Source of the DNA: Alteromonas pelagimontana
GTDB taxonomy: Bacteria; Pseudomonadota; Gammaproteobacteria; Enterobacterales; Alteromonadaceae
Direction of reading: 5' to 3'
Length of the DNA stretch: 64,000 bases
Assembly: GCF_002499975.2 (NCBI RefSeq)
Contig: NZ_CP052766.1
Location: 2,170,001-2,234,000 of the forward strand
The notes beneath the pieces were generated by a model that was given only the letters and a program-made list of their open reading frames with translations, ran no database searches and was not told the origin of the DNA. A program made the translations under genes and the position numbers. This document shows positions 15,598-40,525 of the stretch, one piece after another (the stretch's first letter is position 1; each line of letters begins with the position of its first letter).

Positions 15598-15674
15598 CCA
15601 CCCGTAGCTCAGCTGGATAGAGCGATGCCCTCCGGAGGCATAGGTCAGAGGTTCGAATCCTCTCGGGTGGGCCA
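15598..15674 (+). tRNA. tRNA-Arg(CCG)
   Basis: A 77-nt cloverleaf can be drawn: acceptor CCACCCG/CGGGTGG, D-stem GCTC/GAGC, anticodon stem ATGCC/GGCAT with loop CTCCGGA (anticodon CCG, reading CGG), T-stem AGAGG/CCTCT with TTCGAAT loop, discriminator G and encoded CCA. It is the only intact tRNA in the window. Its 3' half forms one of the element's end repeats. The C1-G72 acceptor pair is unlike copies A and B, which begin with G. Confidence 0.93.
15628..15674 (+). repeat. Left end repeat of the integrated element (attL candidate)
   Basis: This 47-bp stretch, from the anticodon loop to the CCA of the intact tRNA-Arg, recurs at 40294-40340 with 4 differences, at 15641, 15647, 15661 and 15670. 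The substitutions fall in tRNA stems. The integrase gene starts about 220 bp further in, the usual layout of a tRNA-targeted element. Confidence 0.65.
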
Positions 15675-15690
15675 TCCTCTCCAATCATCC

Positions 15691-15896: not shown

Positions 15897-16886
15897 ATGG
15901 CAACGATAACAAAACGTGATAACGGGAAGTGGCAGGCGAAGTGCCGGAGAAAAGGTTTTCCCACACAAAGCAAAACTTTTGCTAAAAAAGCAGATGCAAT
16001 TAAATGGGCTCGTGATATTGAAGCAAAAATGGATTCGTCCATTTTTATGAGTACTTCAGAAGCAGAAGCGCTTCCGGTGGCTGATGGACTTAATAAATAC
16101 TGGGAAGAAAAGCTCTCCGAGAAGAAATCTGCGAAAAGTCTCGGATACATGACTAAAAGGCTTGGAAAAGTTTTTAACTCATACAAACTTATCGATCTGA
16201 CTGTCAGTTCCATCAGAGAGTATAAGGCATACAGGCTGGAAAAAAGCAAAGTCAAAAACGACACCGTACGAAAGGAACTTAACATGTTGAAAGGGTTTAT
16301 CAATCATGCCATGACAGAGTGGGAGATGTACCTGCCAAAAGGAAATCCGGTAGACAATGTAAGTTTGCCTGCCAAAGGCAAAGCCAGAGACAGAAGGTTA
16401 AAGCCAGGGGAGGAACAAATTCTCCTTCATTCAGCAAAAGAATATGGTGGAGCTATTTCCGACCTTATTCAATTCGCTATCGAGACAGGCATGCGCCGTG
16501 GTGAAATAATCGGAATAGAATGGGAATGTGTCGACCTCACAGCTTCGACAGTTTTTCTGGCGGACACCAAAAATAACGAAAGTAGAACAGTTCCTTTATC
16601 TCCACGCGCAATGGAAGTCATTAAGTCGCAGCCCCGTCACCTCTCTGGTAAGATTTTCCAAATAAGGGGAGACTCAGTTGGTCAGGCGTTCAGGCGAGTG
16701 ACTGAAAGGGCAAAAATTAAAGATCTACGTTTTCACGATCTTCGTCATGAAGCTACCAGTCGCTTTTTTGAAAAGGGATTTGCCATGATGGAAGTTTCTG
16801 CAATCACTGGTCACAAGGATCTCGCTTCCCTTAAGCGGTATACGCACCTGTGTCCAGCCAATCTGGCTAAAAAGCTGGCCGGTTAG
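15897..16886 (+). CDS. Tyrosine-family site-specific integrase
   Basis: A 329-residue phage-type integrase. An N-terminal arm-binding domain with the MATITKRDNGKWQAKCRRKGF beta-sheet pattern is followed by a core-binding domain and a C-terminal catalytic domain. Catalytic residues are visible: Arg in TGMRRGEIIGIEW, HDLRHEATS (H-x-x-R), TGHKDL and the tyrosine nucleophile in LKRYTHL. A strong GGAGG lies just before the ATG. It presumably recombines the element at the adjacent tRNA-Arg. Confidence 0.93.
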   Translation: MATITKRDNGKWQAKCRRKGFPTQSKTFAKKADAIKWARDIEAKMDSSIFMSTSEAEALPVADGLNKYWEEKLSEKKSAKSLGYMTKRLGKVFNSYKLIDLTVSSIREYKAYRLEKSKVKNDTVRKELNMLKGFINHAMTEWEMYLPKGNPVDNVSLPAKGKARDRRLKPGEEQILLHSAKEYGGAISDLIQFAIETGMRRGEIIGIEWECVDLTASTVFLADTKNNESRTVPLSPRAMEVIKSQPRHLSGKIFQIRGDSVGQAFRRVTERAKIKDLRFHDLRHEATSRFFEKGFAMMEVSAITGHKDLASLKRYTHLCPANLAKKLAG

Positions 16887-20722: not shown

Positions 20723-21784
20723 TTATTTCCGTCTTCGCTGCAAACTTTGGCCTAGGTTATCTTCTGTTCGACTGACCTTGTTTACAATATCTTTCAATGC
20801 AATTTCTGATTCAGTAATGATTGCTTGGCTAACTTCTCGCTTAAGAATTTTCAGCTCAATAACCTGACTCTTAACCCACTGTGCTCTGTTTTTGAGATTC
20901 AAAATAGTCTTTTCCAATCTTTCTATTTCAGATTGCTTTTCATCGATACCGACTGACAGTTCCTCATTTTGGGTTTGTATGTGATTAGTCTGGCGGATTG
21001 CCTGTGTAAGTTTCCTCTTAACGAAGGCTTCTTTCTCAAGGTGTTTTCTGTTGTAAATGTTTCTTGTCTGGCCTCTTTTGAAGCCCCAGTTCTTAAAAAT
21101 CGAGAATGCAATATCCTGTATTTTTTCAAAATTAGGATTGAGTCGGTTAGTTTTTCCATTGCCATCTTTACCTTTCTTATAGAGATGACGCAAAGGCGCA
21201 TACATTTTCTTGGTAGAAAAGGAAAAATTTAAAAATTGAACATGTGCATGGATATTGCGGATAAAGGAACCTTTCTTTGTTTCGATTTCACTTTGAGTAT
21301 TTTTCTTATCCGAGCTTGCGCAGTCACCAATACTTGGCATTTCGTTCTCGAACCTACCCTCATCAAGATGGATATCGAATCCTAAAGGTTCGAAATGGAA
21401 TGCTTTCTTTATTGCTAGTGCGTACATCTTGAGCTTTTCAATAAAAGCTTCAAGCACCCGTTTAGCAGTGTATTTCCGTTCCAGCTTCGAGTACTGGCTT
21501 TCGCTAAGTGATACAACATGTTCGAACAATACATTGCTATCACAGCGAATCTTTTTTCCGGTAACCTGTTTGTGCCGTAACATCATCACTTCAAGAGCTT
21601 CCGTGCAGGACGAAGCACCATGAAAGTAAAAGCCTTTATTGAATTTACTGAATTCGGAATAGACGTTTTGTGAGGAAGTGAAGCCGTTTCTTTTTGAGTG
21701 AGAATGGTCAAGAACTGCATCGGCATTAGGCTTTTTAAAATACCTGCAGTGAACTGAAACGGATGGGCGCGTACTGTTGCTCAT
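20723..21784 (-). CDS. Relaxase-like (HUH/Mob) protein
   Basis: 353 residues. The middle has two blocks resembling the metal-binding part of Mob-type relaxases: LGFDIHLDEGR and, after a spacer, RNIHAHVQFLNFSF (H-x-H arrangement). The C-terminal third is a long coiled coil (about 255-345). A candidate tyrosine near the N-terminus (CRYF) cannot be assigned with certainty. It overlaps the upstream 123-aa gene by 4 bp. It would nick DNA at an origin of transfer, letting the island be mobilised by another element's machinery. Confidence 0.5.
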   Translation of the reverse strand: MSNSTRPSVSVHCRYFKKPNADAVLDHSHSKRNGFTSSQNVYSEFSKFNKGFYFHGASSCTEALEVMMLRHKQVTGKKIRCDSNVLFEHVVSLSESQYSKLERKYTAKRVLEAFIEKLKMYALAIKKAFHFEPLGFDIHLDEGRFENEMPSIGDCASSDKKNTQSEIETKKGSFIRNIHAHVQFLNFSFSTKKMYAPLRHLYKKGKDGNGKTNRLNPNFEKIQDIAFSIFKNWGFKRGQTRNIYNRKHLEKEAFVKRKLTQAIRQTNHIQTQNEELSVGIDEKQSEIERLEKTILNLKNRAQWVKSQVIELKILKREVSQAIITESEIALKDIVNKVSRTEDNLGQSLQRRRK

Positions 21785-22257: not shown

Positions 22258-24033
22258 TTAGTATTTACAACTCTCTGGTCTGTTCTCTTCTCTCGCACCG
22301 GCAATATTCATTTCAACTATTTGGTCTGAGCATCCTGCTGTATCGCATAGACGTACTCCATAATCTTTTGTTTCTATATCTACATTAAGAAGATAAGTCT
22401 CGCCATATTCCGATGTGGTTACGACTTGCAGGCTTTTATCTTCCCAACCAGTGCCTGAATCAACACTTACAAGCTCGTAATAGCCATTATTATTATCTGC
22501 GCCACCTAAAAATGTTGCTTTGTACAGTTGGCAAATTGGAATGCTTGCACCGAAGTTGTCAATGAACCAGCTTTGTTCACAAGTGTCTGTATCGCTAAGA
22601 GCAAAACTGATAGTGTTCATCTCTCCTTTCATCACAGCATCTGCAAAAGCGATAGCTGCCATTACATCGGGTACACCAGTGCCACATCTGCTTCCGTCAC
22701 AAGAAGAGCCTAAAACCTCACCTCTGGCTGTTGCTTTTAGCGCCTGCTTAATAAGCTCTGGACTTGCCCCAGTCATTGATTTAATTGCGGTCGCAAGACC
22801 TGCTACGAGAGGTGAAGAGAATGAAGTTCCGTCCCAGAAACAGGCAAACTGAGAGTCGCCTTCTTCACATGGTGCTGCAATCCAGTCTCCTGCAGTAACA
22901 AGGTCTAGACCATCACCATAGTTAGAGAACCACTCAAGTTCACCATCTTTATCCACAGAACCAACAGAAATTACACCCTCACAGTTGGCTGGTGCAGAGT
23001 GTGTCGCAGGCATCGTTTCGTTTCCTGATGACGCTACTATTACCCAGCCTGCTGATATTGCCCGCGAGATGGGCTCCTGTACATATTCTGGGCAACCGTC
23101 TTCCGCCAAAGCTCCAATGCTCAAATTGATAACGCCTGGGTTACCTGAATAAGGTTCGATTCCAGCAAACTGTTTACCCAGCAGGTATTCTATGTTGTTT
23201 ACGGCGTCTGACATGAATCCTATTCCGCAGGTCATAACACGTCCCGCATACAGATTCACATTGTTAGTAATCCCCGCTCCAGCCATATTATTGTTCATTT
23301 GCGCAGCGACTGTTCCCGCTACACCAACCCCATGACCATTGCAAATTCCCTGTTCAAGCGAAAGAGGGTTGGGACGGAAATCCGCATGAGGCTCCTGACG
23401 GTCACCATCTTTTTCCAGCGCAGTCGTTGAAAAACTTGCACCCCCAGTGAAAATCACATCTTTGTTGTCGAAGAATGAAGAGTCCATAATCCAGACGTCT
23501 ACCTTTTCGCCATCATTAAAATAGTTGCTTCCTTCCCAAGCTTCAATAACATTCATGCCTAGCTTACTTTCATTGCTGCTGCCAAGGTAGAATTCCTGCC
23601 TGATAAAGTCGTTATCGTTAACGGCTGGTGTCCCTTTCTGGTGGATTTCCAAATCGGCTTCGACTAAGCCAAAATGCCCGTCCTCAGTCAGTGCTTTCGC
23701 TACTTCTCTGGCATCGTAACCCAAGCCATCAAGAGTGATAATTTCCATCCCTGAAGATCTGTGTACAGATTTGGCCGTTACTACATCGTTAGCAACTGAC
23801 TTCTTTGTATTGGAGTCAATTGTATAGTTGCCTATGCACCAACTGCTTTTGCCATCAGGTGTGGGAACACAGCCTGACATTGAAGGAGTCGCTTTCTGTG
23901 TCGCGACTTCTGACTTCACAGTGTTCGCTTTAGGCGTGATCACCAAACGAACTTCTTCACCAGCATCTACGGAGAAAGTCACTGCTGAGATTACGCTCAC
24001 AAATACCGAAGTTAAAACTGATTTCATTTTCAT
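22258..24033 (-). CDS. Secreted subtilisin-family (S8) serine protease
   Basis: 591 residues with a signal peptide (residues 1-24, cut near VDAG). A pro-region extends to about residue 150. The catalytic domain has the triad Asp184 (VWIMDSSF), His234 (NGHGVGVAG) and Ser404 (GTSFSSPLVAG), and the oxyanion Asn338 (VASSGNET). About 130 cysteine-containing residues follow (DTCEQSWF, PICQLYK, LCDTAGCSD). It is probably exported and self-processed. A ribosome site AAGGAAA precedes the ATG, and the lipoprotein gene ends 10 bp upstream, so the two are co-transcribed. An extracellular protease is unusual island cargo. Confidence 0.9.
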   Translation of the reverse strand: MKMKSVLTSVFVSVISAVTFSVDAGEEVRLVITPKANTVKSEVATQKATPSMSGCVPTPDGKSSWCIGNYTIDSNTKKSVANDVVTAKSVHRSSGMEIITLDGLGYDAREVAKALTEDGHFGLVEADLEIHQKGTPAVNDNDFIRQEFYLGSSNESKLGMNVIEAWEGSNYFNDGEKVDVWIMDSSFFDNKDVIFTGGASFSTTALEKDGDRQEPHADFRPNPLSLEQGICNGHGVGVAGTVAAQMNNNMAGAGITNNVNLYAGRVMTCGIGFMSDAVNNIEYLLGKQFAGIEPYSGNPGVINLSIGALAEDGCPEYVQEPISRAISAGWVIVASSGNETMPATHSAPANCEGVISVGSVDKDGELEWFSNYGDGLDLVTAGDWIAAPCEEGDSQFACFWDGTSFSSPLVAGLATAIKSMTGASPELIKQALKATARGEVLGSSCDGSRCGTGVPDVMAAIAFADAVMKGEMNTISFALSDTDTCEQSWFIDNFGASIPICQLYKATFLGGADNNNGYYELVSVDSGTGWEDKSLQVVTTSEYGETYLLNVDIETKDYGVRLCDTAGCSDQIVEMNIAGAREENRPESCKY

Positions 24034-24043
24034 GTTGATTTCC

Positions 24044-25039
24044 TTACTCTGCTGCCTGGCATGATGCGCTGCTCTGAGTCAGTTGCGCCATAAATTGATA
24101 TTCATTGTTGAAAGTCCAAACCCACTCCGTTGAGTAAGCCCCCATCTGCGCATTACCTATAAACTGTGATAGAAGTAGCCCACTTTCTTTATCCAAACTA
24201 ACTACCCCTAATGGGAGTTCAGGCACCGTGCCTGATGCCAGTGATACCAACTCTTCTAATACTGAATTCACAGGAATAACGAAATCACCTGAAAGCGCCA
24301 GAATGTCATCTGTCTTAGCTCTTACCTCAGTTTCGGTGATAGTGCTGTCGAGATAACTGTTAACTACCTCACTGCGAGCATTGCTGAAGTTGATCAAATC
24401 TGCGCGAGTGGTCAGATTCAAATTCACAGGAAATACCGGGATATTTGCAGTAGGCACTCCTTTCATCTTCAGAATCTTCTTAAGACGCTTGAATAATTCG
24501 CGTTCCGACTCAAGGTTTATAAAGGTCCCTGCTCCCCAGGCAGCAATTTCATAATTAGCCAACGCCTTTTCACCAGAACTGTTGACCAAGCTTGTGCCAA
24601 TTGTGTAAGAGTCGGTTTGCCCTGCGCTGTCGGTAAAAGTAACAACGATTTCATCGCTACCGTCGTTTTCCAACTCTGGTACAGCGATATTAATCATCGC
24701 GCCGTTCGCACTAATGTCGCTGATTGAAACCGATAAGGCGGATGGCAATGATTCTTCAACGGTGGCGGATACGTCACCATTCGCACCTGTAAATGAGACA
24801 GAAAGATCAGTAGACGTATTTTCAGAAAGTGAAATCGCCGTATTCTGCGTTGTTAATTTAAAGGCCGTTGGCTGTGGGGTGCCTACGTTGGTTCCGTCAT
24901 CGTCTGGGGTTTGTGGGACATCTGAATTACTGCTACCGCCTCCGCCACATGCGGTAAGTAACATTGCTGACATCAACGTTAATGAAGCAACCCTGAAAAT
25001 TTTGGAAGGGGCGTATGATAAATTGTGAGAGTCTTTCAT
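24044..25039 (-). CDS. Secreted lipoprotein with cadherin-like domain, partner of subtilase
   Basis: 331 residues. A long signal sequence ends in lipobox LLTACGGGG, and a Gly/Ser/Pro linker follows. Residues 55-150 look like an immunoglobulin/cadherin-type beta domain (TFTDSAGQTDSYTIGTSLV); the rest is helical and unrecognised. CCGGAGA precedes the ATG. As the first gene of a two-gene operon with the subtilase, it may anchor, chaperone or inhibit the protease. It reads away from the palindrome block at 25108-25393. Confidence 0.65.
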   Translation of the reverse strand: MKDSHNLSYAPSKIFRVASLTLMSAMLLTACGGGGSSNSDVPQTPDDDGTNVGTPQPTAFKLTTQNTAISLSENTSTDLSVSFTGANGDVSATVEESLPSALSVSISDISANGAMINIAVPELENDGSDEIVVTFTDSAGQTDSYTIGTSLVNSSGEKALANYEIAAWGAGTFINLESERELFKRLKKILKMKGVPTANIPVFPVNLNLTTRADLINFSNARSEVVNSYLDSTITETEVRAKTDDILALSGDFVIPVNSVLEELVSLASGTVPELPLGVVSLDKESGLLLSQFIGNAQMGAYSTEWVWTFNNEYQFMAQLTQSSASCQAAE

Positions 25040-25107: not shown

Positions 25108-25130
25108 TATCCGCAGCCAGATTGCGGATA
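25108..25130. promoter_or_regulatory. Palindromic operator copy 1
   Basis: Perfect 8-bp inverted repeat TATCCGCA (25108-25115) and TGCGGATA (25123-25130) around 7 bp. It is the copy nearest the lipoprotein start, about 70 bp upstream of it. Confidence 0.65.
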
Positions 25131-25173: not shown

Positions 25174-25196
25174 TATCCGCAACCTGACTGCGGATG
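25174..25196. promoter_or_regulatory. Palindromic operator copy 2
   Basis: TATCCGCA-N7-TGCGGATG, one mismatch at the outer base. It starts exactly 66 bp after copy 1; the pair forms one duplicated block. Confidence 0.65.
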
Positions 25197-25304: not shown

Positions 25305-25327
25305 TATCCGAAGCTAGATTGCGGATA
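25305..25327. promoter_or_regulatory. Palindromic operator copy 3
   Basis: TATCCGAA-N7-TGCGGATA, one mismatch in the left arm. It starts 197 bp after copy 1, the same offset that separates copies 2 and 4. Confidence 0.65.
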
Positions 25328-25370: not shown

Positions 25371-25393
25371 TATCCGCAATCAGGGTGCGGATA
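25371..25393. promoter_or_regulatory. Palindromic operator copy 4
   Basis: Perfect TATCCGCA-N7-TGCGGATA, 66 bp after copy 3 and about 50 bp before the ATPase-protease start. ACTGAG (25355-25360) and CTCAGT (25395-25400) extend the symmetry outward. Confidence 0.65.
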
Positions 25394-25444: not shown

Positions 25445-28400
25445 ATGGCCTTAGCTACAGCAAATAAAACCCAGATCCTCAACGCATACTTCGAAACATT
25501 CAGTACAGACATAAAGCAAAAGATGCTTGATGGTACAAATCAAAATGAAAAGCTTGCACTTTGCCTTGCGCATTATAAAGGCTGGCTGGATCTGAGTGAT
25601 GATTTAACTGATATCGTAGACTGCAAGACGATAGAAGACTCAAAGGCACTATTTGGGCTCATTATGATAAACCTGTACATGCCGGTTACAAATACCGTTC
25701 TTGACGAAATCAGAACGGTTGGAGCGTCAATGGCGAAAGGTTATCAGGATGTGACTTTTGATAACTTTGTTTCTGATACCAGAAGACTCTTTAAAAGAGC
25801 CAACCATCAAAATGGTTTTGCATTTGATAAGTTTGCAATGTTATGTGGCCCCGAAATATTGTTTGGCGAAGACTCTCCGTCTGACTTCAATGTTGTGTGT
25901 CCGTTTTCCGGCGAGATCACCGAATATCCTTTGCACACTCAAAAAGTAAATTCAGAGCGGGCTGTAAAGAGATTGGGCAAGGTAGAAGTTGAAGATCTTT
26001 TTAGTAGCGGTGATAAAGAAGTCAGGGAGTTGCTTGACAATATCTGTTGGATAGAGAAGGCATACTGCTTAGAACAAAAAGTACAAAGACTACCGGCAAC
26101 AGAAGCGATTGGTGAACAACTCTTTGTCGCTGCGGTAGCTGGGAGTGTTGGCTTTATAAAGTATATAGCTTCAGCCATCAGTACACATGCGTTTCAGCTA
26201 GTTTTCCCTACATCCTGTACTGAATTGCGTAAGCGTCTCTTAGAGCAGGTAGAAAAAAGAACCATTGAAACTTACGAAGGTTCTGTCAGGGGCCCAAGCA
26301 TCGATTGGTTTACTCACGCAGAAAGAGGGTGCAGAAGTAAATTAAAGCTTGAGCAGTCAGTCTGGGAGTTTTTACGCTGCTTCCTTGCGCGTAGCGAAGA
26401 TGGGCAGATCATATTTCACGTAGATGAAAATACCACTTTTGATTTGGCTTGCTGGGAGGAGCCTGTTTTATTCGAAGATATTGAGCCAAAGCGATACATT
26501 GAAGAAATGCTGAAGCTGAACAAGCTCGAAGTGAGGAAGCCTCCATTTTCATATGTGAAAGCGGTCAAAAAGCGGCTACATGCTAAAGTTAAAGGTCAAC
26601 ATGGAGCAATAGAAAGTGTAGCCTCTTCGCTATCTAATCTTATTGTTAACGGCGGCGATTGCCACCTGGGTACGTCAGTATTTCTCGGCATGAGCGGTAC
26701 CGGGAAAACGTATCTGGCAGAAGGTATTGCGGAAGCATTTGTAGAAGAGCTTTCTCTCGATTATCAGGTTCAGATACTTAATATGGAGCAGTACAATGAC
26801 GAACGTGATGTGATGAAATTGTTTGGGGCTGGTTCTCAATATAGCGATTCAGCACTGGGTGAATTGACATTATCGGTGATGAAAAATCCAAGAACCCTTT
26901 TTGTTTTTGATGAAATTGAGAAAGCACATCCCAGTGTTATACAAGCGCTACTAACACTGCTCGACAAAGGGCAAGCCAATGACCGAACAGCTATGCGGGC
27001 CATAGATTTTTCGCTTTGTCATTTCGTTATCACAACGAACCTTGGCAGTAAGTTAATTGAGCGTTCGTCTGAAAATAACTTAGATGTCAGAGAGTTGCTT
27101 ACCAACAAGAAAATAAATGGTGGACGCTCGCTGTCTCCTGAAATGGTGAACAGACTGCAGGCCGGTACTATCGCAGTTTTCAAACCTATTAGTGCTGCAA
27201 CAATGCTCTCAATAGCCAAACAAACGTGCATGGTAACAAGAAAAATGGGGTCTGTGGCATGGCCTGAAAATGTTGAAGAACTGGCAGTTGCTACGCTAGG
27301 GGGAAGTGTGTCACCACGTTCACTGGCAACCCAGCTTTCGAAGCTTGAAGGGGACATTACTAATGAACTTGTAGACAAGGTTCCCGAAGGAGAGTTGCGC
27401 CTACTTAATAAAATCCGCTTTTCGAATGAAAGTTTCATGGATTCCCAGGATGTAAACGTACGAATTCTTTCGCCGCGAAAGCAACTCGAAAAGTTATCCG
27501 ACAAAAATATGGACATTCACCGTCAGTTTAATGAGCGTGAATTAGCGGTTGCACTGAAAGGTAATTTTGATGTGCTTTTGGTCGACACTGAAATGTTTTC
27601 CGGAAAGATAAGAGAAAGTATCGCTCTGCTGAAAAAGCATACCTCAAAGGTAATTGTGACCTTGGGCAACATCAATCAACAATCTGACGTTGATGCTCTC
27701 ATTTCTGAAGGCTCGGTTTTTACTCACATCGCATTATCCCGAAATGCATCTTTGGATGATTACAGACAATGTCTGCAAAATATCAAGAGAATTGGTGCGC
27801 TGGCCAAATACACAGAACTTTCAATCGCGCGGAACATGAAACCAACCTACTCCTTCGGCTATCAATTTCTTGAAGATGGCATTGAAGTGAACATGAAATC
27901 ATTCCGTTGCAAGCAGATGGTAAGTACAGAAGATGCTGATCTTCCATTTATCAATTTTGCCGGAAAGCCGAAAGGTTCACTGGATGACGTTATTGGTCAG
28001 GACAGTGAGAAAAGCAAGCTGAGAGTGATAGTAAATGCGATGAATAGTGCAGACGTCAATGGAGATGATTGTATTTCTGTTCCAAAGGGATATCTGTTTA
28101 CAGGCTTACCCGGCACAGGAAAAACTCATATGGCGCGCTGTCTGGCAGCAGAAAGTGATATGTTTTTCTTTAATGTAAACTCAGCAGACCTACTGGTTGG
28201 ATGCGCAGTTTCAAATGTACAAAAATTGTTTGATGTTGCCAATCGATATGCACCATCGATGATTTTCCTTGATGAAATTGATTCGATAGCGAAAAGCAGA
28301 CAATCCGTCGGTCACTCTTCAGCTATTGTAGTCAATGCACTGCTGACTGCTATGGATGGTTTTAAACAGAATTCCGGCAAGGTATTCGTAATGGCTGCCA

Positions 28401-29281
28401 CAAATAATCCACATGAACTGGATACCGCATTAACCAGAGCGGGGCGCTTTGAAAGATCTATTCATTTCAATCTACCCACAAAAACCTCAATTTCAGCCTG
28501 TGTAAATGAATGGTTCAAAATACGTAATTGTACACTGCCTGAAGAACTTCGAGCAGAGTTAACCTGCTTACTGCAGGGGGCCACTATTGGGAGAATTCGT
28601 GAAATCTTCAACAACTCCGTACTCTCTGCAAAGGCCGAAGGGATCGAATGGAAGCCCACTATGCTCATTGAGGCAGTGCGTTCGGCAAAGCTGGGAGTGG
28701 TGACCCAGACCGCAAAACAATCAAGACAGCAACTGAAATATACAGCTTATCATGAAGTTGGACATTTAATTGCGCATAAACTGTTGCTGCCAGACATTCC
28801 TGTTGATTTTGTGTCGATTCAACCTCGCGGGGCGGCTTTAGGCATGGTTGTACCCGGTAGTTCAGATGCTGAACCGCTGCTTTCCCGCAGTCGGGTTAAA
28901 GCGTATTTGCAGGTGTTTCTTGCGGGAATAGCTGCTGAGCATATGTTGGGATTAGTTGGGGACGAACAAACTGTTGGCGGCGCTGACGACAGAAGAAAAG
29001 CGACGGCCTTGGCCAAAAAGGCGATTGTTCAATGGGGAATGTCAGATTCGTTTGGATTCGCTATGCTTTCTGAGCTTGAGACAGAAAGTCAACACATTAA
29101 TGATGAAGTTAGGAACTGGTTGGCTGAAGCATTCTCCAATATAAGTGAATTACTTGGTGAGAACAGAGAGCTTCTCAGTGCAATCAGCGAATCTTTAGTT
29201 GAAAGAGAGCAACTGGACAGGTCGGAAATTGAAAAGCTCTTCGAGCAGCTTTATCAACCACAAATTTTGAAAGCTTCTTAA
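25445..29281 (+). CDS. ClpB-type AAA+ / FtsH-type AAA+ zinc-metalloprotease fusion
   Basis: A 1278-residue protein in one uninterrupted frame. Residues 1-375 are helical and unrecognised. Residues 380-660 form a ClpA/B second-ATPase-type module: GMSGTGKTY (about 415-423), VFDEIEKAHP (about 486), ITTNLGS sensor 1, PEMVNRL arginine finger. Residues 690-860 include an alpha/beta stretch (VLLVDTEMF...VIVTLGNI) like a receiver domain. Residues 865-1075 are an FtsH-like ATPase: GLPGTGKTH (about 887-895), MIFLDEIDS, RAGRFERSI. The C-terminal M41 protease has HEVGH at 1103-1107 and the third zinc ligand Asp1181 in GGADD, the same 78-residue spacing as E. coli FtsH. The membrane helices of FtsH are absent, so it should be soluble. 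GGAG precedes the ATG. Confidence 0.9.
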   Translation: MALATANKTQILNAYFETFSTDIKQKMLDGTNQNEKLALCLAHYKGWLDLSDDLTDIVDCKTIEDSKALFGLIMINLYMPVTNTVLDEIRTVGASMAKGYQDVTFDNFVSDTRRLFKRANHQNGFAFDKFAMLCGPEILFGEDSPSDFNVVCPFSGEITEYPLHTQKVNSERAVKRLGKVEVEDLFSSGDKEVRELLDNICWIEKAYCLEQKVQRLPATEAIGEQLFVAAVAGSVGFIKYIASAISTHAFQLVFPTSCTELRKRLLEQVEKRTIETYEGSVRGPSIDWFTHAERGCRSKLKLEQSVWEFLRCFLARSEDGQIIFHVDENTTFDLACWEEPVLFEDIEPKRYIEEMLKLNKLEVRKPPFSYVKAVKKRLHAKVKGQHGAIESVASSLSNLIVNGGDCHLGTSVFLGMSGTGKTYLAEGIAEAFVEELSLDYQVQILNMEQYNDERDVMKLFGAGSQYSDSALGELTLSVMKNPRTLFVFDEIEKAHPSVIQALLTLLDKGQANDRTAMRAIDFSLCHFVITTNLGSKLIERSSENNLDVRELLTNKKINGGRSLSPEMVNRLQAGTIAVFKPISAATMLSIAKQTCMVTRKMGSVAWPENVEELAVATLGGSVSPRSLATQLSKLEGDITNELVDKVPEGELRLLNKIRFSNESFMDSQDVNVRILSPRKQLEKLSDKNMDIHRQFNERELAVALKGNFDVLLVDTEMFSGKIRESIALLKKHTSKVIVTLGNINQQSDVDALISEGSVFTHIALSRNASLDDYRQCLQNIKRIGALAKYTELSIARNMKPTYSFGYQFLEDGIEVNMKSFRCKQMVSTEDADLPFINFAGKPKGSLDDVIGQDSEKSKLRVIVNAMNSADVNGDDCISVPKGYLFTGLPGTGKTHMARCLAAESDMFFFNVNSADLLVGCAVSNVQKLFDVANRYAPSMIFLDEIDSIAKSRQSVGHSSAIVVNALLTAMDGFKQNSGKVFVMAATNNPHELDTALTRAGRFERSIHFNLPTKTSISACVNEWFKIRNCTLPEELRAELTCLLQGATIGRIREIFNNSVLSAKAEGIEWKPTMLIEAVRSAKLGVVTQTAKQSRQQLKYTAYHEVGHLIAHKLLLPDIPVDFVSIQPRGAALGMVVPGSSDAEPLLSRSRVKAYLQVFLAGIAAEHMLGLVGDEQTVGGADDRRKATALAKKAIVQWGMSDSFGFAMLSELETESQHINDEVRNWLAEAFSNISELLGENRELLSAISESLVEREQLDRSEIEKLFEQLYQPQILKAS

Positions 29282-29317: not shown

Positions 29318-30493
29318 TTAAAATTTTACGGTTTTTTGCAAATCATAGAGATAGCCTTTGTCATAGCTGGCGATTAAGAAGGTTATCTCTATATTATAAT
29401 GTTGGGTTAGATCTTCGAAATGAGGATAACCCGTATTCCCCACTACTTTGTATGCTACATCGTAAAGATATTGCACGCCATTTATATCAATTTTCCACTC
29501 TAAAAACTCTGTTTCAAGAACTTCGAGTTCCCCTTCGTAAACCCACTGACTTCTACTATCTTCTGAGTGAAGCAGTAGTTGCGATCCATCAATGAGGTCA
29601 TTATCTAATAATTCTCTACTATCAAATTCCAAATCGTCCATATATTCAACCAAACCATTCTCTTCAATTGTTTCTTCCACTGCCGCTCTGAATTGATCTA
29701 CTAGATCTTCATCTTGTCGACTTTTGAAAAAACAGAGTTTGAGGATGTCTTCGAGTAGGGCGGCTTCAATAAACTCATTTTTATCTTTTGCAAGGCGATA
29801 TACGTTTCCAATTGATACTCCAAGGTCACTCGCAATTCTCTGAACGGACCTTTTCTGTTCAGCCTTAATTTTGCCTATAATTTTTGAAACTGGAGAGATA
29901 AGGAGTGGCTTGATGTTTACCAAACATTTTTCGCAAACAAACAAGGCCAGCTCGAATGTCTTTTGCCTTTCTCCAAGAATAGGGCCGTATCGCTTTGTTG
30001 TATTTGTACTGGCGTAAATGTTGTAGCCAGTTCGTTGAGTAACTTTCCACTGGTCTCCAGGAACTACTGACGCTCTGTCACTTTCTTCATGTACACATCT
30101 ATGTTTGAACCAGCAAGATCCTCTGCTAAGTTCGGCCTGATTTATAATCGAGTCAAAATCGTTTCGCAGCCTCGACTCAAGCTCACTTTGAGTTATCGCG
30201 AAAGGTGACACCTTTTTATTGGAACCATTTCCGGCGTTATCATCTACTGGAGGGTAACCAAAGTACCCGAAACCTTTTGAACCTCTGCTAACTCCATTAA
30301 CTTTAAAGTGAGCCAACTTATCCTGTGTTGCCTGAGAAGGCAGGTAGTAACTATCTTGATTCAATCGATATATTGTTGCTATACCAACACCAAGCTTCCC
30401 TTCACTTTCCAAAGATATAAATGTCTGGGACGGGTTTTTAGTTCTCCATTTGTCTAGCCAATCCTTAACACTGTCCCCTATTTCCCATTGCAT
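29318..30493 (-). CDS. Hypothetical protein with two HTH-like segments
   Basis: 391 residues, no family recognised. Two helix-turn-helix-like stretches can be seen, GVGIATIYRLNQDSYYLPS near residue 36 and RIASDLGVSIGNVYRLAKD near residue 225, the second resembling a Fis/TnsD/TniQ-style module. A cysteine/histidine cluster (CWFKHRCVHEE and FVCEKCLV) may bind zinc. The C-terminal 100 residues are acidic. AAGGA precedes the ATG. It is convergent with the ATPase-protease (36 bp apart). Confidence 0.5.
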   Translation of the reverse strand: MQWEIGDSVKDWLDKWRTKNPSQTFISLESEGKLGVGIATIYRLNQDSYYLPSQATQDKLAHFKVNGVSRGSKGFGYFGYPPVDDNAGNGSNKKVSPFAITQSELESRLRNDFDSIINQAELSRGSCWFKHRCVHEESDRASVVPGDQWKVTQRTGYNIYASTNTTKRYGPILGERQKTFELALFVCEKCLVNIKPLLISPVSKIIGKIKAEQKRSVQRIASDLGVSIGNVYRLAKDKNEFIEAALLEDILKLCFFKSRQDEDLVDQFRAAVEETIEENGLVEYMDDLEFDSRELLDNDLIDGSQLLLHSEDSRSQWVYEGELEVLETEFLEWKIDINGVQYLYDVAYKVVGNTGYPHFEDLTQHYNIEITFLIASYDKGYLYDLQKTVKF

Positions 30494-30608
30494 GAATAAT
30501 CCTTAAATCAGTATTTTTATCAAGTTGTGAAATTAGTTTTTTCGCTATTTGATAGTGAGTGTACCTCATTTAATCTGCCCATGCCTTCAACAAACGAGAG
30601 CAAAGCAA

Positions 30609-30845
30609 ATGAAAAAGAATTCCAAATCCGATAACTATGAGTTCAACAAGCTACATCTCGCTGTCAAAAAAATAAGTGCTGCTTATGGGGTTAGCGAGCA
30701 TCAGGTAATCAGCAGATTACAAGAAATAGTCGTCTTTGGTGTTTCTAAATCATCTTTAGGCACAGAGAGAATTATAGACCTGTGGGATGACCATTGTGCC
30801 AACGATTTTGAATATGACTGCGAAGAAATCGGATTAGTAGCGTAA
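30609..30845 (+). CDS. Small HTH-like protein
   Basis: 78 residues from ATG 30609 (MKKNSKSDNYEF). The stretch AVKKISAAYGVSEHQVISRLQEIVVFG reads as a helix-turn-helix. The ending is acidic (HCANDFEYDCEE). The open frame extends 20 codons upstream from a non-ATG codon without a ribosome site. It lies 43 bp before the DeoR-like regulator and divergent from the preceding gene. Confidence 0.45.
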   Translation: MKKNSKSDNYEFNKLHLAVKKISAAYGVSEHQVISRLQEIVVFGVSKSSLGTERIIDLWDDHCANDFEYDCEEIGLVA

Positions 30846-30888: not shown

Positions 30889-31563
30889 ATGAATCAGTCA
30901 GAACGCAGAAGAAGCATTGAGAACCATCATCTTTCAACGAAGGTTCCGGTTACAATCCCTGAATTGTCACGTGTTTTCAATGTTTCAGAGAACACTATCA
31001 AAGCAGATATGATAGCGCTTGAAGTGCTGAACGTTGCATATTGCCTTAACCCAAATGGTAAGCCACAAAAATGGTGTGCTGTGAAGCCAACAAATAAGAT
31101 GACAATGTCAATCGAGCTGGCCTATGCGCTTAAGCAGGTAGCTGTAACGGCTAAGATTGCCTTGCCAGCTGCACTTTTTGAGCAAATACAGGAAGTATTT
31201 GACGAGGCAAATGATTCGTATCTTAGCAAGCACAAGTCTAACCACCAAAGTAAGGTAGTAAGATTTGAGAGAGGGACATCGCAAATAGATTTTGCAAAAC
31301 ACCTTCATTTGGGAAATATAAGTGCAGAAGTACTGGAGTCAGTGAAGTCAGCAATATTTTCAGAAGAAAGTATTTCCATTGTCAGTGGTAACATTGAACA
31401 GACTTTGACTGGCTTAGTGGTCAGGGAATTTGACAATAAACTGATTCTCGAGGGTAAAAGAGTGGGTTTAGGAATGGGAGTCGTGAGAATCTCCTTGCGA
31501 GAAATTACCGCTGCCAGAGTGGTTCCACCTTTTACCGATTTTCATGAAAGAAGAGCAGCTTGA
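30889..31563 (+). CDS. DeoR-like HTH regulator, possible WYL-type C-terminus
   Basis: 224 residues. The N-terminus (VPVTIPELSRVFNVSENTIKADMIALEVLNV) is a DeoR-type winged helix. The centre is helical. The C-terminal 80 residues (ISIVSGNIEQTLTGLVVREFDNKLILEG) resemble a beta-rich WYL-like ligand domain, but the W-Y-L residues are not evident. AGGGGA precedes the ATG. A broken partial copy follows at 31639-31802. It may control the divergent protease units or the restriction genes. Confidence 0.6.
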   Translation: MNQSERRRSIENHHLSTKVPVTIPELSRVFNVSENTIKADMIALEVLNVAYCLNPNGKPQKWCAVKPTNKMTMSIELAYALKQVAVTAKIALPAALFEQIQEVFDEANDSYLSKHKSNHQSKVVRFERGTSQIDFAKHLHLGNISAEVLESVKSAIFSEESISIVSGNIEQTLTGLVVREFDNKLILEGKRVGLGMGVVRISLREITAARVVPPFTDFHERRAA

Positions 31564-31638: not shown

Positions 31639-31802
31639 TTGAGCATCATCTTTTAACGAGGATTCCGGTTACAATCCTTGAATTATAAAGTGTTTTCAAT
31701 GTTTCAGAGAACACTATCAAAGCAGATACGGTAGCGCTTGAAATACTGAACGTCGCATATTACCTAAACCCAGATGGTAAGCCCCAAAATGGTGTGCTGT
31801 GA
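31639..31802 (+). pseudogene. Broken partial duplicate of the DeoR-like regulator gene
   Basis: This stretch closely matches 30912-31085, the N-terminal HTH coding part of the preceding gene, including 32 consecutive shared bases over the FNVSENTIKAD codons. The copy carries stop codons (TAA at 31654 in the parental frame region, and at 31686) and a lost A in the AAAAA run near its end. It is a decayed tandem partial duplication. Confidence 0.8.
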
Positions 31803-40293: not shown

Positions 40294-40340
40294 CCCTCCG
40301 GAGGCAAAGGTCATAGGTTCGAATCCTATCGGGTGCGCCA
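40294..40340 (+). repeat. Right end repeat: orphan 3' half of a tRNA-Arg (attR candidate)
   Basis: A tRNA 3' half with anticodon stem strand GGCAA, T-arm ATAGG-TTCGAAT-CCTAT, acceptor strand CGGGTGC and GCCA. No 5' half adjoins it. It pairs best with the 5' half of decayed copy B at 15444, not with the intact tRNA at 15598. Confidence 0.7.
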
Positions 40341-40525
40341 TTCAAATCAATCAGTTACACCAATTCCTAATTTTCAAAAATTGCTCTGTGCCCAAGTTTT
40401 ACCCATTCTGTGCCTTTGGCGAAAAACGATTAGTTCAAAATGCACTCATTATGACTGTTGCTCTAATTCTTTCTTGGTGCTAGTGCTTTACTGAGAATCT
40501 GCTCTTATATAAGGTGCTTGTGAAA

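Follow-up and report, generated by a model that had tools for sequence, protein, structure and literature searches.

A soluble single-chain protease with Clp-type and FtsH-type AAA+ domains on an integrated island of Alteromonas pelagimontana: a candidate inducible proteolytic module

The gene considered here lies at 25445..29281 (+ strand) of a 64,000-nucleotide stretch of Alteromonas pelagimontana DNA (contig NZ_CP052766.1, positions 2,170,001 to 2,234,000), hereafter the window. It encodes a single-chain Clp-receiver-FtsH protease of 1278 aa, as indicated by the open reading frame, Pfam domains and full-length homologues. Judged from sequence, this is a genuine, conserved, soluble chain consisting of an N-terminal domain, a Clp-D2-type AAA+ domain, a predicted receiver-like domain, an FtsH-type AAA+ domain and an M41 peptidase. 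Our best reading, which we hold to be probable, is a dedicated, inducible proteolytic module acting in two compartments, with a two-ring soluble AAA+ metalloprotease in which the receiver-like domain possibly serves as a gate. Known bacterial AAA+ proteases have a separate peptidase (Clp, HslUV), one membrane ring (FtsH) or one soluble single-chain ring (Lon), and the gating of proteolysis otherwise falls to separate adaptors such as RssB. A chain with two unlike motors, a receiver-like domain and a protease lets the sharing of work between rings and gating in cis be tested directly.

The fused chain

The frame is open throughout its 1278 codons, as an earlier note on this DNA had read it. That note had allowed for two genes joined by an assembly error. 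Because full-length homologues occur in other genera, the frame is no artefact of assembly or frameshift. The host genome is a single contig of 4.31 Mb. A database search gave 91 proteins at E <= 1e-3 of 7992 scored. Besides the identical cluster P0002, 23 database proteins match the fusion over 85-100% of its length with 33-57% identity; where an organism is named, it is Idiomarina, Pseudoalteromonas, Shewanella or Alteromonas. When the first 370 aa served as query, two genomes among 394 of the order matched, as did 8 of 395 of the family, the window's own genome (G000) counted; both are lower bounds since they come from a drawn genome sample and one query sequence. Half of the eight family matches are partial and of low significance (E 3.8e-6 to 3.3e-4), and all eight lie within full-length chains of 1215-1321 aa. 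The marine family forms one group in the tree of the protease part (support 97) and in that of the Clp part (support 99). The trees neither establish nor reject one common origin of all fusions (approximately unbiased test, p 0.474 for the Clp part).

A domain scan with profile hidden Markov models (HMMs), proposed earlier as a check, bore out two AAA+ types in one chain: Pfam AAA_2 at residues 409-572 (26669..27160, + strand; E 1.7e-28), AAA at residues 884-1009 (28094..28471, + strand; E 1e-41) and Peptidase_M41 at residues 1093-1265 (28721..29239, + strand; E 4.1e-28), each of the three clearly over its cut-off. Also present are the Walker A/B motifs of both AAA+ domains, the arginine-finger positions and the zinc motif HEVGH (1103-1107). 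The first AAA+ part had been called a ClpB-type module; its likeness to ClpB in AAA_2 stands, yet it is a single D2-type domain (ClpB/ClpA D2) and not a whole ClpB. The M41 motif is intact. The third zinc ligand, D1182, lies 78 residues past E1104 and 79 past H1103; in the genome's own FtsH the distance from the first His to the Asp is 78. All 29 distinct sequences compared (24 of alignment A1 and L127-L131) retain HExxH, D1182 and, in each AAA+ domain, the Walker Lys and Glu. The absence of an evident membrane helix was also upheld, the top 19-residue Kyte-Doolittle mean being 1.74 as against 2.32 and 2.29 for the top two of the own FtsH. As the same genome encodes this ordinary FtsH of 649 aa and separate AAA_2-domain proteins, the fusion is an additional protein.

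The N-terminal part (25445..26560, + strand; VIA-align) was modelled as residues 1-380 with a predicted local distance difference test score of 79.5 and a predicted template modelling score of 0.57; Foldseek found no match to this model at E <= 0.001. For the insert between the AAA+ domains (residues 668-793; 27446..27823, + strand), predicted structure and fold comparisons give the alternating five-stranded alpha/beta fold of receivers. By its position in the predicted model Asp714 ends strand 3, the site of phosphorylation in receivers, and this Asp is kept in 28 of 29 sequences.

The pore positions of the two AAA+ domains differ. In the D2-type domain 24 of the 29 sequences have Tyr there and the other five have Phe. 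In the FtsH-type domain the pore residue is Leu, Met, Ile or Val in all 29 and never aromatic; the own FtsH has MFVG, and by eye the pore loop of the window protein is three residues shorter. The pore Phe of FtsH is essential. The pattern of pore residues suggests that the Clp ring may be the puller.

Palindromes, regulator and divergent genes

Divergent from the protease gene runs a gene for a lipoprotein of 331 aa (24044..25039, - strand) with a lipobox-like LTAC; its homologues adjoin a subtilase in relatives, and a lipobox-like motif is present in six of six lipoproteins. Next to it lies an S8 subtilase of 591 aa (22258..24033, - strand; Pfam Peptidase_S8 E 1.5e-29) with, by eye, a signal-peptide-like start. 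The active-site Asp, His and Ser motifs are matched in the window subtilase; the same simple patterns are incompletely matched in five other subtilases. A lipoprotein and S8 pair is found near the fusion, the nearer gene within about 8 kb, in six of the eight fusion genomes (G000, G302, G533, G650, G629 and G462). In G739 the pair is about 60 kb away.

The divergent region of 405 bases holds four copies of a 23-bp palindrome, TATCCGCA-N7-TGCGGATA, compared with 0.04 expected in the whole window. These operator candidates are laid out as a duplicated pair: copies 1 (25108..25130) and 4 (25371..25393) are exact, copies 2 (25174..25196) and 3 (25305..25327) have one mismatch each. Copy 4 starts 74 bases before the protease start codon. 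In G000, G650, G629 and G302 the palindrome starts 73-75 bases before the chosen fusion start, and it is 91 bases (G000) and 57 bases (G302) before the lipoprotein. All seven exact sites of the 21-bp core ATCCGCA-N7-TGCGGAT across the eight fusion genomes are at fusion or lipoprotein promoters. Outside the fusion set the exact palindrome occurs in one of 59 genomes (G019:C24:11255-11275). One-mismatch sites are background; the reversed pattern likewise gives three in G000.

A candidate binder of the palindrome is encoded at 30889..31563 (+ strand), a short winged-helix regulator of 224 aa which profile comparison describes as degenerate-WYL-like. Strong matches to it (E <= 1e-49) occur in 4 of 395 genomes, exactly the four fusion genomes with the exact palindrome; weak matches (E ~1e-5) occur in two further ones. 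From this co-occurrence we infer that the 224-aa protein binds the palindrome. Short regulators of one loose family are located near the fusion in G000, G650, G629, G462, G739 and G533 and on the facing contig in G302; in G500 none was seen within 20 kb around the fusion. Profile comparison of these regulators with WYL proteins gave 97.4 with seven members and 96.3 with three, against 2.8 and 4.9 for controls, and a WYL profile HMM matched the regulator at E 3.3e-5. Pfam WYL did not match it at E 0.1, and the family search found none in G000. Directly ahead of the regulator in G000, G629, G650 and G302 is a small conserved protein (98 aa as called; 30549..30845, + strand). Just past the intact regulator gene a stretch at 31641-31793, 73% identical to regulator residues 12-62 and with a stop codon, is probably a decayed duplicate.

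The fusion and the secreted protease are probably under joint control, and palindrome and regulator together are a handle for finding the inducing signal. We envisage the following sequence of events. The N-terminal domain, partly Clp-N-like, would recruit substrate. The upper Clp ring, with its Tyr or Phe pore residue kept, would do most of the pulling, and the lower FtsH ring, with no pore aromatic, would gate access to the M41 chamber. Placed between the rings, the receiver-like domain would tune their coupling, perhaps via Asp714. The WYL-like regulator, encoded 1.6 kb downstream and probably a repressor, would occupy both divergent promoters at the palindromes. Derepression would then yield protease, lipoprotein and secreted subtilase together, with degradation on both sides of the membrane.

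The island and the possible role of the module

According to its borders the fusion gene sits on an integrated island of ~24.7 kb at tRNA-Arg. An attL-like site is the 3' end of tRNA-Arg(CCG) (15628..15675, + strand). Adjoining this tRNA gene is a tyrosine-type integrase (15897..16886, + strand; PHROG integrase E 2.4e-59), and the attR-like site (40294..40341, + strand) repeats part of the tRNA-Arg 3' end over 48 bases, of which 44 are identical. The islands of G302 and G533 have integrases 59-61% identical to that of the window. In G302 contig C26 begins with the regulator and restriction-modification genes, and the end of the fusion gene lies where C27 begins, an arrangement consistent with one interrupted island. 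Convergent to the protease gene is a gene for 391 aa (29318..30493, - strand) whose helix-turn-helix-like matches are weak. A homologue of 25% identity occupies the corresponding position in G650 and links the gene weakly to one in G302. A further conserved island protein without a Pfam family (20723-21784) shares 45% and 42% identity with island proteins of G302 and G533.

The neighbours include defence-type genes. The window holds a LlaJI-type restriction-modification system with a relative in G302. Among the neighbours of the fusion, G629 has a cytosine methylase together with a type II/IIG-like enzyme, G650 has a restriction enzyme and two type II methylases, one of them with Pfam D12, and G739 has AbiEi and two AbiEii; this survey covers selected neighbours, and the presence of such genes need not mean enrichment. 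Two related large proteins, directly downstream of the fusion in G462 (L128 13288-15453) and near it in G739 (L130 14159-16768), have no Pfam or PADLOC match.

The earlier note had suggested possible action on phage or plasmid proteins or on a regulator. The context, i.e., a mobile island, restriction-modification or AbiE neighbours and a WYL-like regulator, fits the first of these. Neighbours and regulator type weakly favour a conflict with phages or plasmids, and we tentatively suggest, as a proposal which may well prove wrong, that the role is that of an inducible conflict or anti-mobile-element module on an integrative island.

Several observations weigh against the reading as an inducible two-compartment module and against its receiver-like gate. 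The exact site is absent from four of the eight fusion genomes (G533, G462, G739 and G500), i.e., exact palindrome and strong regulator match go together in just four of eight. The association with an S8 protease of at least 130 bits, present in 26 of 395 genomes and in seven of the eight with the fusion (Fisher p 1.8e-8), counts genomes as independent, yet some share an island; G500 has the fusion without such an S8, and the lipoprotein and S8 pair is often found without the fusion, in many genomes (L169-L187). Restriction-modification neighbours may merely reflect cargo that collects on islands. The PADLOC matches of the fusion are those of a generic ATPase. The receiver-like insert, already named as a possibility in the earlier note, is sustained by structure prediction and not by Pfam, whose matches include no Response_reg. 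Its profile compared with four response regulators reached a probability of 1.6, and the acidic pair after strand 1 is missing in 28 of 29 sequences including the window protein, adjacent acidic residues being present in L131 only. The role of this domain may be structural only. A report of activity was not found for any family member.

Other roles have been considered. The fusion could belong to a mobile proteostasis or stress-tolerance module, in which it disaggregates and degrades damaged cytosolic protein while the subtilase serves the envelope. The comparison is with the transmissible locus of stress tolerance (tLST), where a Clp disaggregase and FtsH are separate products (PMC8290217); the fusion unites two such activities. 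An unfused counterpart exists on a Limimaricola plasmid (L188 4542-9266), where an AAA ATPase gene comes immediately after ftsH in a cluster of chaperone and protease genes that includes htpX, grpE and one of the DegQ family. However, no chaperone or heat-shock family appeared among the neighbours in Pfam and NCBIfam scans (ten proteins each, partial coverage), and control is apparently exerted through a WYL-like regulator and a private palindrome. We regard a proteostasis role as unlikely on balance, yet as a serious possibility. That the element employs the fusion as its own protease, which cleaves a repressor or replication protein to steer excision or transfer, is improbable. The gene does reside on an integrative island with an integrase and conserved island genes, but no relative of the window integrase was present in the stretches read of G629, G650 and G462 (by eye, G462 has another integrase-like gene), and the Clostridial relatives described below occur, by eye, in unrelated contexts. 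Least probable of all is a maintenance pair resembling a toxin-antitoxin system such as IetAS or SgiAT, with a subtilisin-like toxin restrained by an AAA ATPase antitoxin: an AAA protein does adjoin an S8 protease on an integrative island, as in SgiAT on SGI1 (PMC5006074), and IetS models weakly pick up the subtilases of G650 (20.9 bits) and G302 (16.1 bits), but the IetA match is unspecific (own FtsH 126.5 bits, fusion 104.7), the window S8 is matched by a general model for subtilases, at E 0.01 by none for IetS, and has a signal-peptide-like start, and the fusion carries a complete protease itself.

Relatives in Clostridia and comparison with known systems

The architecture is not unique, being shared by at least 120 Clostridial-type protein clusters. 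With profiles derived from the marine family, AAA_2-AAA-M41 chains come up in Clostridia, a Sulfurovum and metagenomic proteins ~920 aa long. One Clostridial member as query gave 6005 proteins at E <= 1e-3 of 7998 scored, not necessarily all of them fusions. Among the 120 matches listed, lengths are 992-1220 aa and the marine AAA_2, AAA and M41 profiles match every one; the marine N-domain and receiver-like profiles match none of these 120. HExxH is invariant in them, and 118 retain an Asp in the stretch that separates the AAA+ domains. The few with organism names are mostly from Clostridia or Bacillota, and one is from a metagenome-assembled genome of Deltaproteobacteria. The Clostridial-type proteins of ~1150 aa (L047 type), annotated as 'AAA family ATPase' or 'ATP-dependent metalloprotease FtsH', share with the marine family the single chain of AAA_2, AAA and M41 and, by eye, a receiver-like stretch with a conserved Asp between the AAA+ domains, yet differ in their N-terminal part, for which PF02861 (Clp_N) is precomputed in some. 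By eye, two Clostridial fusion genes (L042, L004) are near TIR-like and signalling-like proteins. A protein of 1438 aa (P0090) with AAA (279-391), AAA_2 (538-666) and M41 resembles a two-domain Clp ATPase which bears an FtsH protease.

An architecture search could have led to a well-characterised family, as the earlier note had considered; it led to many relatives, and no description of the architecture or of the function of the Clostridial-type proteins was found among the papers listed by the literature searches, which covered few subscription journals and preprints. The passages searched of a review on FtsH (PMC9020784) contain none of the terms fusion, tandem, ClpB and 'two AAA'. Fused machines of this kind in other bacteria are apparently undescribed, and the Clostridial relatives point to a sizeable, unstudied protease class. 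A new class of self-contained two-ring AAA+ metalloproteases with a built-in receiver-like gate, the marine form of which would be the cytosolic arm of an inducible, operator-controlled, two-compartment proteolytic immunity module, is a rather doubtful extension of these findings.

Several known systems share individual features with the fusion. FtsH ternary conflict systems (Kaur et al. 2020, PMC7159879) also use an FtsH-type AAA+ domain in a proposed conflict system. They differ in having two FtsH-type domains, the first inactive and devoid of P-loop and Walker B, together with MoxR and vWA proteins. The fusion departs from this MoxR-vWA-FtsH system in its first domain, which is AAA_2 with Walker Lys and Glu kept; MoxR or vWA partners did not turn up in Pfam and NCBIfam scans of ten proteins each, which partly covered the neighbours. 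The tLST islands (ClpG/ClpK with FtsH and DegP) also pair a Clp motor with FtsH on mobile DNA, but as separate genes and with other partner genes. BrxR, a WYL-domain repressor of a defence island, recognises inverted repeats of 11 bp that are 5 bp apart, and phage defence is co-localised with 48% of its homologues (PMC9122601). The window regulator may resemble BrxR and CapW in its winged helix, WYL-like part and nearby inverted-repeat operator candidate; its WYL-like part is shorter and degenerate, and its control would be over a protease module.

With FtsH (HflB, TIGR01241) the fusion has in common the order of AAA+ and M41, the zinc motif and the arginine fingers. It differs by the absence of membrane helices, by its score (244.6 bits against a TIGR01241 cut-off of 600) and by the non-aromatic pore position, and the M41 domains of the marine family are on their own side of a branch that separates them from FtsH (support 97). 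With ClpB and ClpA D2 it shares the AAA_2 domain with an aromatic pore residue. In contrast to ClpB (109.9 bits against a cut-off of 1232.1) it has one such AAA+ domain rather than a pair of Clp domains, and it carries its protease in cis.

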